Part shown: piece after piece, positions 9,631 through 15,712 of the stretch
Layout of the letters: each line of letters opens with the position of its first letter
Position numbering within the stretch: position 1 is the stretch's first letter
Source: Clostridia bacterium
GTDB lineage: Bacteria; Bacillota; Clostridia; Oscillospirales; CAG-272
NCBI GenBank assembly: GCA_017621655.1
Contig: JAGASS010000033.1
Span: forward strand, 124,001 to 188,000
Reading direction: 5' to 3'
DNA length: 64,000 nt
The notes under the pieces: model-generated
What the model was told of the DNA's origin: nothing
The model's input: the letters and a program-made list of their open reading frames with translations, nothing else
The model's database searches: none
Program-made: the position numbers and the translations under genes

Positions 9631-10722
9631 TCAGAAGTAGATACGGCTCTCGTCTTCTTTGGAGAAGAGGAATACCTTATGGCTCTTGAGGGAGAAGGTA
9701 ACGGTCTCGCCCATTTCGATCTTGTTATCGGAATTTACGATAGAACGGATAACGGGATTGAGCGATGCTTCGTTCGTCGAAACGACGGAAACGTCACGTC
9801 CCATAATCTCAACGTTCTGAAGGTTACATACGAAGGTTCCGTTCGGGTCGATATTAAAGCCCTCGGGACGGATACCGACGGTAACGGGCTGGTCGCTGAC
9901 GCCGGGAACGTCAAGCACTGCCGCATCACCTATATAAAGCTTTTCGCCTTCTACTCTACCGTCGAATACGTTGATCGGAGGAGTTCCGAGGAACTTTGCA
10001 ACGAAGAGGTTTGTAGGATCGTCATAAACGTCCTGAGGTGCGCCGATCTGCTGAACAACGCCGAGCTTCATAACTACGATAAGGTCGGAAATGGACATTG
10101 CCTCTTCCTGGTCGTGCGTTACGAAGATCGTAGTAATACCGGTCTCCTTCTGGATACGGCGGATCTCTTCACGGGTCTGAAGACGGAGGCGCGCGTCAAG
10201 GTTTGAAAGCGGCTCGTCGAGAAGAAGAACCTTAGGCATCTTTACGAGCGCACGCGCGATAGCAACTCTCTGCTGCTGACCGCCCGAAAGCTCGCTCGGC
10301 TTACGGTCCATAAGATTGTCGATCTGAACGAGCTTTGCTGCCGTGTAGGCACGCTCGATCATAACATCCTTGGGAAGCTTGTCCTTGCCCTTCAGGTTCT
10401 GAAGGGGGAAGAGGATATTCTGCTTAACAGTCATATGGGGATAAAGTGCGTAGTTCTGGAACACGAGGCCGACACCGCGGTTTTCTGCCGAAAGTCCGGT
10501 TACGTCGTCGTCTCCAAAGAAGATCTTACCGCCGGACGGCTTCTGAAGTCCGCTGATCATGTAAAGAGTGGTACTCTTACCGCAGCCGGACGGTCCGAGA
10601 AGTCCAATAAGCTTTCCGTCGGGGATCTCAAATGTGAAGTCGCTTACAGCAACTACCTCGTCCTTGACCTTCTTGTTTCTGCTGGGGAAGATCTTGGTCA
10701 GATTTTGCAAAACAATTTTCAT
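9631..10722 (-). CDS. ABC transporter ATP-binding protein, MalK/UgpC/MsmX type
   Basis: 363 residues. Walker A GPSGCGKST near 40-48, Q-loop VFQNYALYPHMT, signature LSGGQQQRVAIARAL, Walker B VLLLDEPLSNLD and the switch histidine in IFVTHDQEEAMS are all intact. The last 120 residues form the MalK-type regulatory OB (TOBE) domain (VTVGIRPEGFNI). This class energises CUT1 importers. Many Firmicutes share one distant MsmX ATPase between several sugar transporters, so a dedicated ATPase gene inside this operon suggests a self-contained system. Confidence 0.95.
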   Translation of the reverse strand: MKIVLQNLTKIFPSRNKKVKDEVVAVSDFTFEIPDGKLIGLLGPSGCGKSTTLYMISGLQKPSGGKIFFGDDDVTGLSAENRGVGLVFQNYALYPHMTVKQNILFPLQNLKGKDKLPKDVMIERAYTAAKLVQIDNLMDRKPSELSGGQQQRVAIARALVKMPKVLLLDEPLSNLDARLRLQTREEIRRIQKETGITTIFVTHDQEEAMSISDLIVVMKLGVVQQIGAPQDVYDDPTNLFVAKFLGTPPINVFDGRVEGEKLYIGDAAVLDVPGVSDQPVTVGIRPEGFNIDPNGTFVCNLQNVEIMGRDVSVVSTNEASLNPVIRSIVNSDNKIEMGETVTFSLKSHKVFLFSKEDESRIYF

Positions 10723-10769
10723 ACCGTTTCGCCTTTCTTCTTTTTATATTCTTATTTTTTTGAACCGAT

Positions 10770-11519
10770 TTAATACGCGGCTTTATCCGCATTTTCCGCC
10801 TGAAGCTTATTTTTATATGCAACAAGCTCCTCGTGTGTATCGAATATCATCTGACTCGCCATATCGACCGTTACCGTCTGAGCGAGCTTATCGTGTATCG
10901 GCGTATGCGCTTTTGTGAACAGCACCAAAACGATCTGAGCGAAGATAATACCGACTACGATCACGATTCCCGCCAAGCCCAATATTCCGAAGAAGAGCAT
11001 TATGACAGCAAGAACCGGAAGCATCGTTTCAACGGTGAATTTTCCGAGGATCGAACGCGCGAACATCAAAACGCCGTTCACCCTCACTCCGTCCACGCGC
11101 ATTACGGCAATTCCGAATATCTTTTTGCCGAGCGTCTGACCGTTCTTGAAGAGAAGCGGAACGAAGAACTCGAGTATAAGAAACGCAAGAAGCGTCGGGA
11201 ACGTTACGATTATAAGCGAAAGATTAAACATCATCTGAACGGCGCGCATCACTTCTTTATCCTTGTTGTACTCATCCTTCGCGGCCTTGTATTGTTCCTT
11301 TTCCTCATCTGTCAGCTTGTCAAACTGAGTTGATTCGTCGAAGCCGTACTTTTCGTAGTAATACTCGCGTCGGTCGTTAAGCTTTTTTTCGTAACTGTCA
11401 TAATCGAGAGCCGCCGAAGCTCCCCACATGAGTCCGACTGCGAGCGTTACGAGAAGAATGAAGTCGAATATGGCAGCCGAAATACGTTTTAACATATTCG
11501 CTCTTTGCAGATCGAGCAT
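10770..11519 (-). CDS. RDD-family membrane protein
   Basis: 249 residues. ANMLKRISAAIFDFILL at the N-terminus matches the start of RDD domains (conserved Arg and Asp in the first helix), and QTLGKKIFGIAVMRVDG is the conserved segment before the last helices. A charged loop of about 60 residues (YDSYEKKLND ... KDKEVM) separates helices one and two. RDD proteins are small polytopic membrane proteins of uncertain role; some affect ion or solute transport. It is the first gene of the ABC/nuclease operon, behind a good promoter. Confidence 0.8.
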   Translation of the reverse strand: MLDLQRANMLKRISAAIFDFILLVTLAVGLMWGASAALDYDSYEKKLNDRREYYYEKYGFDESTQFDKLTDEEKEQYKAAKDEYNKDKEVMRAVQMMFNLSLIIVTFPTLLAFLILEFFVPLLFKNGQTLGKKIFGIAVMRVDGVRVNGVLMFARSILGKFTVETMLPVLAVIMLFFGILGLAGIVIVVGIIFAQIVLVLFTKAHTPIHDKLAQTVTVDMASQMIFDTHEELVAYKNKLQAENADKAAY

Positions 11520-11652: not shown

Positions 11653-13356
11653 TCATTTTCTGTAGAACGCGTTGCCGCCGATAAACTCACGAACCAGACT
11701 TGTAGGCGGTATTTCATCGTCCACCGATGCCGGGTGAACGAAGTTTAGCACCTTTACTATCGATCTTACCTCGTCATAGTATTCGTCCTCGGGTCCGATC
11801 GAAATAAGAAGCGGGAAAATATGCTTGCAAAGGACAGCAAGCTCATATAGCGTCGAGCTGTTGAATATGACGTCCGCCTTTTCCTGGAACGGGAATATCC
11901 ACTTCTCTTCCCCGCGCCTTACCGACTGCCACATCGAAAGAGTTTTACTTACCGACGAGCCGCGCGTTTCGTAGTCGCGTACTATTCTGCGGAGCAGACG
12001 CAGATAGCTGCTTGCGATTCTGTTATGGTCGTCGAGGTTAAGCGGCAAGAACGGGCAAACGAAAAGCTTGAAGACAGCTTCCTCGGGGAGTCCCTCGGGA
12101 AGCATTGCGGGATTGAGCGCGTGAAGTCCCTCGACTATTATTACCGAGGTATCGCCCAGCTTCATAAAATGTCCGTTATATTCTCTTTTTCCCGTCTTGA
12201 AGTTGAAGGTCGGTATTTCGACTTCCTCTCCTCGCAGGAGTGCGGAAAGATGCTCACCGAAGAGCTTTGTGTCGATAGTGTTTATGTGCTCAAGGTCGAC
12301 CTCGCCGTTAGGACCTGTGGGGATCTTGTCGCGGTCAATATAGTAGTCGTCCAAACTCATCAGTATCGGCTTTCTGCCGTGAACGCGAAGCTGTGTAGCC
12401 AGACGATTAGCGGACGTCGTCTTTCCCGACGAGGACGGGCCTGCAAGCATTACCGCCTTGCTTCCTCTCGTACATATCATATCCGCAATTGCCGAAAAGC
12501 GTTTTTCGTGCAATGCTTCGTTTACTCTGATAAGCTCTCTGATCTTGCCCGAATCAACCAACTCATTAAGGTCGGCAACAGTCTCACATTCCATCAGCTC
12601 GCCCCATTTTTTGCCCTCGATGTAGACGTTAAAGGAGTTAGGCATTTCACGGTATTCCGCGACCTCGTCAGCACTTTTTCTGCCCGGGAAGATAAAGACG
12701 AAGCCGTCGGGGGCCGGGATTATATCCCATACGCGCAAAAAGCCCGTCGAGGGCGCCATTTCGCCGTAATAGTAATCGGAAAAGTCCTCGTATTCATATA
12801 CGTCAAGAGTCGGGACGGGACGGTAAGAAAAGAGACGGGCTTTATCGTCCTGACCTTCCTCCGCATAGTGCCTGATAGCATCCGCCGTGCTTATACGGCG
12901 GCGTCGAAGCGGAATATCCATATCGACTATTTCGTGAACTCTCTTTTCGAGCACGTCGGCATCAAATTCGGGCGCGTTCAGTATCTCGATATACAGTCCG
13001 TCGCCGACCGTGCAGTGCATTCTCGCCTTTGCTTTCGGCCAAAGCTGACGAAGCGCAAGGAAAATAACGAACTGCGCAGTGCGGAAATACACGTCGTAGC
13101 CGGCAGGATCGGTATAGCGTAAAAGCTTAATTTTTCCGCCCGATGCTTCCATCGCCTTGCGCTTGGTCTCGCCTATCTGACCGATGTCCTTGCTACGCAA
13201 GGGCACGTAATTCAGCGTGAATACCTCACCTGCGATCTTCGCAGCGATAGGATCGTTTGAAAGCTTTCCGTTCATTAAGCCGAGGCGCTTTACTATGTTA
13301 AGCAGCGACTCGTCAGGCATTACTTCTACTTCTCGTCCTTCAATGTATAATTTCAT
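11653..13356 (-). CDS. TGS-domain nucleoside (uridine-like) kinase
   Basis: 567 residues. Residues 1-60 resemble a TGS domain (MKLYIEGREVEVMPDESLLN). About 60-200 resemble the second additional domain of threonyl-tRNA synthetase (KARMHCTVGDGLYIEI). From about residue 290 comes a P-loop kinase with Walker A AGPSSSGKTT and the uridine kinase/phosphoribulokinase pattern LMSLDDYYID. Such proteins phosphorylate nucleosides or related sugars. The ATG at 13356 was preferred to a TTG at 13362 because GGAG lies 8 bases before it. It lies 17 bases after the YgjV-like gene, so it should fall under the same guanine-class riboswitch. Confidence 0.85.
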   Translation of the reverse strand: MKLYIEGREVEVMPDESLLNIVKRLGLMNGKLSNDPIAAKIAGEVFTLNYVPLRSKDIGQIGETKRKAMEASGGKIKLLRYTDPAGYDVYFRTAQFVIFLALRQLWPKAKARMHCTVGDGLYIEILNAPEFDADVLEKRVHEIVDMDIPLRRRRISTADAIRHYAEEGQDDKARLFSYRPVPTLDVYEYEDFSDYYYGEMAPSTGFLRVWDIIPAPDGFVFIFPGRKSADEVAEYREMPNSFNVYIEGKKWGELMECETVADLNELVDSGKIRELIRVNEALHEKRFSAIADMICTRGSKAVMLAGPSSSGKTTSANRLATQLRVHGRKPILMSLDDYYIDRDKIPTGPNGEVDLEHINTIDTKLFGEHLSALLRGEEVEIPTFNFKTGKREYNGHFMKLGDTSVIIVEGLHALNPAMLPEGLPEEAVFKLFVCPFLPLNLDDHNRIASSYLRLLRRIVRDYETRGSSVSKTLSMWQSVRRGEEKWIFPFQEKADVIFNSSTLYELAVLCKHIFPLLISIGPEDEYYDEVRSIVKVLNFVHPASVDDEIPPTSLVREFIGGNAFYRK

Positions 13357-13373
13357 GATCAATTCTCCAATCG

Positions 13374-13919
13374 TTAAATGCTTATTTTGTACGGCATGAG
13401 TATTTCGCTTCCCTCTGAAATGCCGCCGTTATTCTTAAGCTCGGTCATGAAGCGCATTACGACCTCGCCGTATTTATATCCGGGAGCAGAGTATCCGAAG
13501 CTTATTCGGAGATCCCCATTCTCTTCACCGCCGACAAATATCCCTACCGGCTCTTTTCCGGAATATACCATATATATTTTTGACCCGTTCCCAATATTCA
13601 AAACAAGATCGGGAAAGCGTTTTTTTATATCCTCGCAGTTTTTTTCCAAAAAGGCGTTAATGACTTCGTCATTTACATCCTTGGAAATAACGTTAAACTG
13701 CTTCTTTTTTATTCCTTCCATTACGAGATGTATAAGGTTTATCACGATCAGCCCCAGATTCAGCAGCACTACAGGCATCGCATCGGACAAATACGAATAC
13801 GCCGCACTGATGACCGAGCCGCATATATTAAAAATGCGAAGCATTGACAGCTTCGTCATCATCATTGATAAGAGCACGAGCGCTGTCCCTATATAACCGA
13901 AGATTTCAAGATATATCAT
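13374..13919 (-). CDS. YgjV-family membrane protein with soluble C-terminal domain
   Basis: 181 residues. The first about 75 residues are three hydrophobic helices (IYLEIFGYIGTALVLLS, LRIFNICGSVISAAY, PVVLLNLGLIVINLI) in the spacing of YgjV-type, PQ-loop-like small membrane proteins. The rest is soluble, and the segment EPVGIFVGGEE ... ISFGYSAPGYKYGEVV resembles a shortened GNAT acetyltransferase core. The start has AGGAGA seven bases upstream. It is the first gene behind a guanine-class riboswitch and is followed by a nucleoside kinase, so a purine-related role is suggested; transport or efflux of a purine is one possibility, not shown. Confidence 0.7.
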   Translation of the reverse strand: MIYLEIFGYIGTALVLLSMMMTKLSMLRIFNICGSVISAAYSYLSDAMPVVLLNLGLIVINLIHLVMEGIKKKQFNVISKDVNDEVINAFLEKNCEDIKKRFPDLVLNIGNGSKIYMVYSGKEPVGIFVGGEENGDLRISFGYSAPGYKYGEVVMRFMTELKNNGGISEGSEILMPYKISI

Positions 13920-13940
13920 TATTATTCTCTCCTAATGCAT

Positions 13941-13975
13941 AAAAAATAGCCGACTATCGGTAACCGGTAGTCGAC
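13941..13975 (-). terminator. Riboswitch expression-platform terminator
   Basis: Minus-strand stem GTCGACTACCGG / CCGATAGTCGGC with loop TTA, one mismatch and one G-U pair, followed by TATTTTTT. The 5' arm includes the aptamer's GACTACC, so this hairpin and the folded aptamer exclude each other. It ends 21 bases before the YgjV-like start codon. Confidence 0.85.
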
Positions 13976-14030
13976 CATTATCGGTGGATCGTAGAAACGC
14001 CTGCCCATATCGCAGGCATATACCAAATAT
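13964..14030 (-). promoter_or_regulatory. Guanine-class purine riboswitch aptamer
   Basis: Read on the minus strand it has every purine-aptamer hallmark. P2 is GCCTGC / GCAGGC around loop GATATGG. J2/3 is GTTTCTAC. P3 is CGATCCA / TGGTCG with one bulged T around loop CCGATAA, and the closing J3/1 is GAC followed by TACC of P1. The specificity base in GAC is C, which in this class selects guanine or hypoxanthine rather than adenine. P1 is short (about TTGGTA with TACCGG, including two G-U pairs). It lies between a strong promoter and the YgjV/nucleoside kinase genes. Confidence 0.88.
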
Positions 14031-14059
14031 TGCGGTGAGCTTACTTCGCCTACCGATTA

Positions 14060-14088
14060 ATTTTAGCATGTTTAAGCTGAAATGTCAA
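14060..14088 (-). promoter_or_regulatory. Promoter upstream of the guanine riboswitch
   Basis: Minus strand TTGACA (14088-14083), 17-base spacer, TAAAAT (14065-14060). Transcription would start near 14053, about 20 bases before the aptamer, so the riboswitch unit is independent of the purine permease upstream. Confidence 0.8.
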
Positions 14089-14163: not shown

Positions 14164-14199
14164 GCAAAAAACGGACCCGTGATCGGGTCCGTTTTCGGT
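14164..14199 (-). terminator. Terminator after the purine permease
   Basis: ACGGACCCG / CGGGTCCGT stem with a four-base loop and a run of T on the minus strand, within 20 bases of the permease stop. Confidence 0.88.
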
Positions 14200-14206
14200 T
14201 TTATAT

Positions 14207-15712
14207 TTACTTTGTCGGAACGAAGAAGTATATAAGGAACAGGATCGAAACAACGATAGCTACGACAGAGAAATCTCTCTTCGGCTTCTCGGTCTTCTTT
14301 ACCGCGCTCTTTATCAGATCGATCACATAAGAGATTATAGACATAGCGGTATAGGAAACGAGACCTACGCCGATACCCTTTGTTATCGAGTAGGAAAGAA
14401 CCATTACCGAGATGGTAAGGAATGCCGAGGTTGCACCTATTGCGTTGCTGAAATCTATAGACTTAGCGTTGTTCTTCATCATAAGAACGCCGACGTAGAT
14501 AAGCGCCGATGCGGCAGCAGCCGAGGGGATGACTGCGAAAAGAGGAAGCGCGAACATCGCGATGAAGAACATACAAGCGGTCGTAAATGCCGTAAGACCT
14601 GTTCTTCCGCCTGCCGATACACCCGAGCCGGATTCAACGAAGGTAGTAACGGTAGACGTACCGATCATTGCGCCCGAGCAGGTCGCGATCGCGTCAGACA
14701 TCATTATTTTTCCGTAGTTATGCGGCTTATTATTTTCGTCGGAAAGAACTCTGTTTCCGCCGCAGCAGCCAACGATCGTGCCCATAGTATCGAACATATC
14801 GATCATACACATGGTGATGATTATCATTATTATGGTAAATACCGAGATTCCCTCGGGAATAACGCCATCCTTGAACACGCTCGTAAACGAGCCGAATACA
14901 GTGTTATCGCCCGTGAAGAAGTTCTCAAAGTTTTCCCAGAATTTCCAGGAGATACCGGGGGTCGTACCCTTAAGGATTCCGAGGTCGGTTACACCAAACG
15001 GGATGCCGACGACGGTTGCACCAAGCAGACCGATAATGACCGATCCCTTGACCTTGAGCTTATCGAGAATTGCGATGATAAAAAGTCCGATCAACGCAAC
15101 CGCCGCGGTTTTCGCCGCATACGATTCGGGATTTCCGTCGTTAACGACCTGCTTACCCCAATTCGTGAAGTCGACAAAGCCGACCTGCGTAAAGTCGTTC
15201 TGGACTATTATTCCTGCATTCTGGAAACCAATGTATGCGATAAAGAGACCGATACCGACCGAGATAGCGCTTCTTACCGGAAGCGGCATTCCGTCAAATG
15301 CAAGCTCGCGGAAGGTCTTTCCCTTGATCTTGATAAGGGAGAGAAGGAGGAAAAGAATACCCGAAATAAGGACGAGGAAGAACGCCTGTCCGGGGGTAAA
15401 CTTAGCGGCATATCCTGCCCATCCGCCTATAAGTCCACCTGCCATGGAGTTCAGTCCCATGCCCGACGCCTGTGCAAGCGGCATCTTTGCAAGGAATGCC
15501 ATAAGCAGAGTTCCTATGACTGCACCGAGCGCCGTTGCAATAAACGCAGACGCCCAATAGGGGCTTGCGGTACTACCGAAGATCTGATTAGGGTTGACTG
15601 TCAGAATATACGACATCGCAAGGAATGTAACTATACCTGCAATTATCTCTGTTCTGACGTTCGTTTGCTTCTTTACGGGATCGTATCCCAAAAGCTTTGC
15701 GAATTTTTTCAT
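14207..15712 (-). CDS. NCS2 (AzgA/PbuG-type) guanine/hypoxanthine permease
   Basis: 501 residues, polytopic. GYDPVKKQTNVRTEIIAGIVTF at the N-terminus (shown in part), AMSYILTVNPNQIFG, ASGMGLNSM and the late ESGSGVSAGGRTGLTAF motif place it in the AzgA branch of the xanthine/uracil permease superfamily, which imports hypoxanthine, guanine or adenine by proton symport. The ATG at 15712 has AGGAGG six bases upstream; an in-frame start 27 bases earlier lacks this support. It has its own promoter and terminator. No purine riboswitch lies upstream, although one follows for the next unit. Confidence 0.92.
   Translation of the reverse strand: MKKFAKLLGYDPVKKQTNVRTEIIAGIVTFLAMSYILTVNPNQIFGSTASPYWASAFIATALGAVIGTLLMAFLAKMPLAQASGMGLNSMAGGLIGGWAGYAAKFTPGQAFFLVLISGILFLLLSLIKIKGKTFRELAFDGMPLPVRSAISVGIGLFIAYIGFQNAGIIVQNDFTQVGFVDFTNWGKQVVNDGNPESYAAKTAAVALIGLFIIAILDKLKVKGSVIIGLLGATVVGIPFGVTDLGILKGTTPGISWKFWENFENFFTGDNTVFGSFTSVFKDGVIPEGISVFTIIMIIITMCMIDMFDTMGTIVGCCGGNRVLSDENNKPHNYGKIMMSDAIATCSGAMIGTSTVTTFVESGSGVSAGGRTGLTAFTTACMFFIAMFALPLFAVIPSAAAASALIYVGVLMMKNNAKSIDFSNAIGATSAFLTISVMVLSYSITKGIGVGLVSYTAMSIISYVIDLIKSAVKKTEKPKRDFSVVAIVVSILFLIYFFVPTK

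Follow-up and report, generated by a model that had tools for sequence, protein, structure and literature searches.

On its own sequence and those of its relatives, the leader described here is very probably a guanine-class riboswitch acting as a kinetic transcriptional ON switch for two genes, one encoding a YgjV-like protein and the other a two-part kinase. It lies on the minus strand of the window, by which we mean the whole 64,000-nucleotide stretch of DNA analysed, between an NCS2 permease gene (end at 14207, minus strand) and the two-gene unit. In the order of transcription, its parts and targets are:

14172..14190, minus strand: terminator hairpin GGACCCGATCACGGGTCCG of the upstream NCS2 permease gene, read from the sequence, splitting two transcription units
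14060..14088, minus strand: sigma-70-type promoter, -35 TTGACA at 14088-14083, 17-nt spacer, -10 TAAAAT at 14065-14060
13964..14026, minus strand: guanine-class purine aptamer (RF00167 at 43.5 bits, with P2 covarying across 13 relatives)
14026-14021 with 13969-13964, minus strand: aptamer P1
14017-14012 with 14004-13999, minus strand: aptamer P2
13998-13991, minus strand: aptamer J2/3, GTTTCTAC
about 13991-13985 with 13977-13972, minus strand: aptamer P3, bulged
13971-13970, minus strand: aptamer J3/1 residues A73 and C74, with C74 at 13970
13941..13979, minus strand: intrinsic terminator, loop UUA, U tract 13946-13941, hairpin of -18.1 kcal/mol
about 13979-13964, minus strand: terminator 5′ arm GTCGACTACCGG (the quoted letters at 13975-13964), made of the P3 3′ strand, GAC and the P1 3′ strand
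about 13960-13945, minus strand: terminator 3′ arm CCGATAGTCGGC (the quoted letters at 13960-13949)
13927..13933, minus strand: Shine-Dalgarno sequence AGGAGAG of the first gene, 3′ of the terminator, read from the sequence
13374..13919, minus strand: YgjV-like membrane protein of 181 aa, with three predicted N-terminal TM helices and a C-terminal GNAT-like domain
11653..13362, minus strand: kinase of 569 aa from a TTG start (567 aa from the ATG at 13356), PF00485 at 59 bits

The match to the purine riboswitch model RF00167 spans 14045..13948 on the minus strand and scores 43.5 bits against a gathering threshold of 37 (cmscan; E = 0.00068 for the 64-kb window). It is the sole purine riboswitch found in the 2.1-Mb genome, and no other Rfam family reached its own threshold in the window, which agrees with the remark in a preliminary description of this DNA that the adjoining permease gene has no switch. 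That description had also announced a complete aptamer core behind its own promoter, and both are in place: L2 reads GATATGG, L3 reads CCGATAA, J2/3 stands between P2 and P3, and J3/1 is GAC with C74, while the promoter matches the consensus at 11 of 12 positions. Comparable TTGACA/TATAAT-like promoters precede the leaders of aligned relatives. On the upstream side, the permease hairpin was also picked up on the other strand, at 14168-14195, as a stem with a T tail. L2 and L3 of the window are near the consensus for guanine-I kissing loops, yet P3 is imperfect, pairing C53-G72, G54-C71 and A55-U70 before a bulged U56, and L3 ranges from 5 to 9 nt in relatives. Since the terminator ends before the Shine-Dalgarno sequence of the first gene, control is transcriptional.

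How could such a leader turn its genes on? The preliminary description had placed the end of P3, the core GAC and the P1 3′ strand within the terminator 5′ arm; we find them there at 13975-13964, and the arrangement recurs in relatives. Because this arm consists of aptamer strands (P3 3′, J3/1 GAC and P1 3′), terminator and aptamer are mutually exclusive, and the window leader has, as far as its sequence tells, a pbuE-type ON layout. The overlap hairpin of -18.1 kcal/mol was equalled by none of 1000 dinucleotide shuffles of the downstream segment, whose mean was -1.4. In folding calculations, the best structure of the transcript up to the aptamer end is the aptamer (-19.7 kcal/mol). The full leader, folded as had been suggested with and without a P1 constraint, favours the terminator form by about 11 kcal/mol (-34.0 vs -23.2 kcal/mol with P1 enforced). 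In the mechanism that we propose, RNA polymerase would make the aptamer first, and the aptamer would fold. Guanine or a closely related oxopurine, hypoxanthine for instance, would then pair with C74 and lock P1 and the junction, withholding the P1 3′ strand, GAC and the P3 3′ strand from the terminator, so that transcription would reach the ygjV-like and kinase genes. With no ligand bound, the newly made 3′ arm would invade P1, J3/1 and P3, the terminator would form and transcription would stop.

The reverse logic, that of the usual xpt-type OFF switch in which ligand-bound P1 releases a terminator, would bring this leader into line with the majority of guanine riboswitches characterised so far, the four of C. 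difficile among them (PMC11477304). We hold it to be highly improbable here: the only terminator-like site in the window leader uses the P1 3′ strand, which is impossible while P1 is intact, and OFF-type leaders of the same family place their terminators downstream of P1. For an ON switch working by strand exchange, the bulged P3 and the variable L3 may even be of help and could explain the low RF00167 score; we infer this from work on pbuE, in which strand exchange is blocked by a very stable L2-L3 contact and regained when L3 has a mismatch at its base (PMC7707468).

Does the layout extend beyond the window? When 146 genomes of the family were surveyed with RF00167, the 36 matches formed two populations, with an overlapping terminator in 10 of 11 leaders before kinase and/or ygjV-like genes vs 0 of 21 before xpt, BMP-lipoprotein, purF and NCS2 genes (Fisher p = 1.7e-7, relatedness not removed). 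R1, a covariance model built from the ON aptamers, found loci in 63 of 395 genomes of the family, with OFF-type leaders as the low scorers, and weaker matches outside the family. Over all non-redundant loci, a terminator 5′ arm containing C74 is present in 34 of 37 kinase/ygjV leaders (the window included) vs 0 of 45 OFF-class leaders (xpt, BMP, purF, NCS2), a census biased towards the ON type by the derivation of R1 from ON leaders; the RF00167 set is the fair test. The overlap test applied to the kinase set follows a relaxed rule, an earlier strict detector having missed hairpins mismatched beside C74. A first-U-run rule was misled by weak early U-runs and scored 11 of the 45 OFF-class leaders as users of an aptamer strand; because of these false positives we relied on the relaxed direct test for the kinase set.

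On inspection, the three leaders lacking a detected overlap hairpin still use aptamer strands. The U-tract hairpin begins in P3 in one (L065) and at the P1 3′ end in another (L056); in the third (L012), where the ygjV-like gene stands alone behind the aptamer, the P1 3′ end pairs with the Shine-Dalgarno sequence, possibly a translational version of the ON switch. The predicted ON layout is common to dozens of related gut bacteria, the genomes surveyed being mostly MAGs. Roe deer gut is the source of two of the related Clostridia MAGs.

Covariation links the two alternative structures at a residue that has no Watson-Crick partner in the aptamer. Of the 37 leaders, 25 have A at residue 73 and 12 have U; in the terminator, A73 faces U in 18 of 21 cases and U73 never faces U (12 of 12, with 5 A and 7 G), giving p = 1.3e-6 with relatedness ignored. 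On the kinase tree this residue changed about four times, and independent pairs are never contrary; after correction for relatedness, some four changes are not significant alone. Residue 71 behaves similarly, three C71 leaders pairing with G and U71 leaders with A (one with G). Within the aptamer, P2 covaries at all six pairs in 13 relatives. These data bear on a further reading, namely that the aptamer is decaying or non-binding and that a plain attenuator or constitutive terminator has been kept by descent. The weakened P3, the variable L3 and the low RF00167 score would be expected of such a relic, yet we find the idea scarcely credible, given that diverged genera keep the ligand contacts unchanged and show covariation in P2, that the terminator 3′ arm tracks residue 73 and that the element is kept in 11 of 11 close kinase orthologs. 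The ON direction offered in the preliminary description, whereby guanine would trap the 5′ arm, instead gains support from the anatomy, the platform conserved in 37 leaders, the residue-73 covariation and the gene context.

Which ligand would operate the switch? J1/2 (GUAUA), J2/3 (GU(U/C)UCUAC, 8 nt) and C74 are invariant in all 37 non-redundant kinase/ygjV leaders. This conservation extends to the ligand contacts U22, U47, U51 and C74, and guanine is therefore the likely ligand. The window carries C74 where adenine riboswitches have U74; it keeps U51 and has no J2/3 insertion, the marks of xanthine-II being U51G and a two-nucleotide insertion there; and its 8-nt J2/3, GUUUCUAC, is without the single inserted nucleotide of guanine-II. 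As for the specific pocket substitutions of the 8-oxoguanine type, the standard ligand contacts of the window aptamer showed no change. Within the family, OFF-type leaders keep A73 apart from the two of purF, and the U73 found in 12 of 37 kinase/ygjV leaders could shade specificity. That A73U occurs in a third of the kinase leaders, together with the altered base of P3, leads to the alternative of an ON switch with the same mechanism and another natural ligand, for example hypoxanthine, guanosine, 2′-deoxyguanosine or 8-oxoguanine; published variants of the scaffold do sense xanthine, 2′-dG and other purines, several of them as ON switches (PMC9295807). We consider such a ligand unlikely in view of the four invariant contacts and of a pocket with neither a J2/3 insertion nor a xanthine-II-like change at U51. 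Moreover, the same kinase stands behind leaders with A73 and with U73, which probably share one ligand. Guanine thus remains the preferred candidate, and its affinity could be modest, judging by the low RF00167 score, the bulged P3 and an L3 of 5-9 nt.

What is being switched? The kinase has a threonyl-tRNA-synthetase-like N-terminal region (residues 77-214 match ThrRS) and a PRK/uridine-kinase-like C-terminal domain (residues 304-520 match uridine kinases). Among the 146 genomes, the switch stands directly upstream of 11 of 11 near-full-length close orthologs (64-73% identity, the window's included), with the ygjV-like gene in between or absent. A twelfth, truncated kinase match (in G125) has no switch upstream, and no R1 match adjoins the distant two-part kinases found at ~40% identity in six genomes. 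The preliminary description had named the two genes as joint targets, of which the kinase has proved constant, whereas the ygjV-like gene, with eight changes on the kinase tree, is optional. Since the latter comes and goes, the kinase is, by this distribution, the main target and the ygjV-like gene a variable passenger. When assayed, the T. maritima two-part kinase, which carries a uridine kinase annotation, formed no NMP (PMC10248530), and we found no established substrate for the two-part family in the literature searched.

The name 'YgjV-like' suits the homologues, two of which score above the PF10688 cut-off, better than the window protein itself, whose match is very weak (E = 1.2) and which hits no Pfam or NCBIfam family at E 0.001. 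These proteins cover the C-terminal half of the YgjV profile, and longer forms add the GNAT-like domain: PF13673 (GNAT) falls just below its cut-off in one homologue, and an AlphaFold2 model of the YgjV-like protein (pLDDT 68) has GNAT folds as its best, if weak, Foldseek matches (E about 2e-3). The AlphaFold2 model of the kinase (pLDDT 41) was not used. The RDD gene that follows was considered as the operon's third gene and set aside, since it is preceded by a promoter-like site; the transcription unit therefore probably comprises two genes. Genes for this RDD protein and a MalK-like ABC ATPase come after the kinase in the window (9631-11519, minus strand) and, in the same order, in two related MAGs (L031, L032).

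A physiological purpose is hinted at by leaders from other families of the order and class, in which R1 matches precede genes for guanine deaminase (TIGR02967 at 331 bits, below the 375 cut-off), MATE and an FAD protein. Terminators using aptamer strands were scored in 8 of 9 guanine deaminase, 18 of 21 FAD-protein and 2 of 2 MATE leaders by the first-U-run rule, with its 11 of 45 false positives in OFF classes. Guanine inducing guanine deaminase fits the proposed ligand and direction, and the genes behind the related leaders suggest a response to excess guanine, with guanine disposal as a plausible purpose. We put forward, as a serious possibility that stops short of being probable, that uncultured Clostridia hold a clade of guanine-I-core switches rewired to the ON direction, which runs a guanine-overload response. 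MATE efflux, guanine deaminase, the FAD protein and YgjV-like membrane/GNAT proteins would take part in it alongside the orphan ThrRS-like/uridine-kinase-like enzyme, whose substrate would be a guanine-related compound or which would lessen the guanine excess in some other way. If true, this would give a first hint of what this kinase family does. Tying the two-part kinase to guanine sensing also makes its function directly testable.

Individual leaders depart from the common pattern. In five guanine deaminase leaders (L075, L076, L078, L080, L082), the terminator 5′ arm is formed by the P3 5′ strand and L3, a second ON layout. One leader of the adenine type (L138, U74) precedes an adenosine-deaminase-like ORF, and its hairpin of -30.6 kcal/mol uses the P1 3′ strand. 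L117, from a genome with three matches (G1001), is a C74 guanine-type leader before a xanthine-dehydrogenase-like ORF. Two FAD-protein leaders (L017, L020) have C73, with J3/1 GCC in place of GAC, possibly a specificity variant.

How does this switch compare with known systems? Its parts are known, and an ON direction with guanine was already predicted for guanine-II; the open-licence PMC literature searched held no case of a guanine-I core joined to a pbuE-like ON platform and conserved ahead of this kinase. The same literature yielded no guanine riboswitch linked to a uridine kinase, nor did YgjV appear in the riboswitch papers retrieved from it. The 8-oxoguanine riboswitch is an ON variant of the same scaffold and is associated with purine breakdown genes. 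It is mentioned in PMC11625349. Xanthine-II, which has U51G and a two-nucleotide J2/3 insertion, and 2′-dG-III are further ON variants tied to purine breakdown genes (PMC9295807); both alter pocket residues (U51G and C73 pairing, respectively), and the window has neither change. Guanine-II of Paenibacillus, predicted to be ON and associated with phosphoribosyltransferase genes (PMC9295807), would share guanine sensing and direction with our leader, but carries a one-nucleotide insertion in J2/3, which in the window is the plain 8-nt GUUUCUAC.

A mechanistic parallel is the B. subtilis pbuE adenine switch, for which experiments have established that ligand locks the junction and so keeps the terminator from invading P1, J3/1 and P3 (PMC7707468). 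The window leader would follow the same path of strand exchange, an ON layout deduced here from sequence; unlike pbuE, with its U74 and efflux pump, it has C74 and serves a kinase with or without a YgjV-like protein. With guanine-I switches such as B. subtilis xpt and C. difficile guaA/xpt it has in common the three-way junction and the contacts U22, U51 and C74. Those of C. difficile (PMC11477304) and Paenibacillus (PMC9295807) are OFF switches, and the known guanine-I examples use a separate downstream terminator, whereas the window terminator takes up the P1 strand, and P3 and L3 differ. One aptamer family would thus follow opposite logic within one bacterial family: OFF for uptake and salvage genes, ON for the kinase and possible disposal genes.
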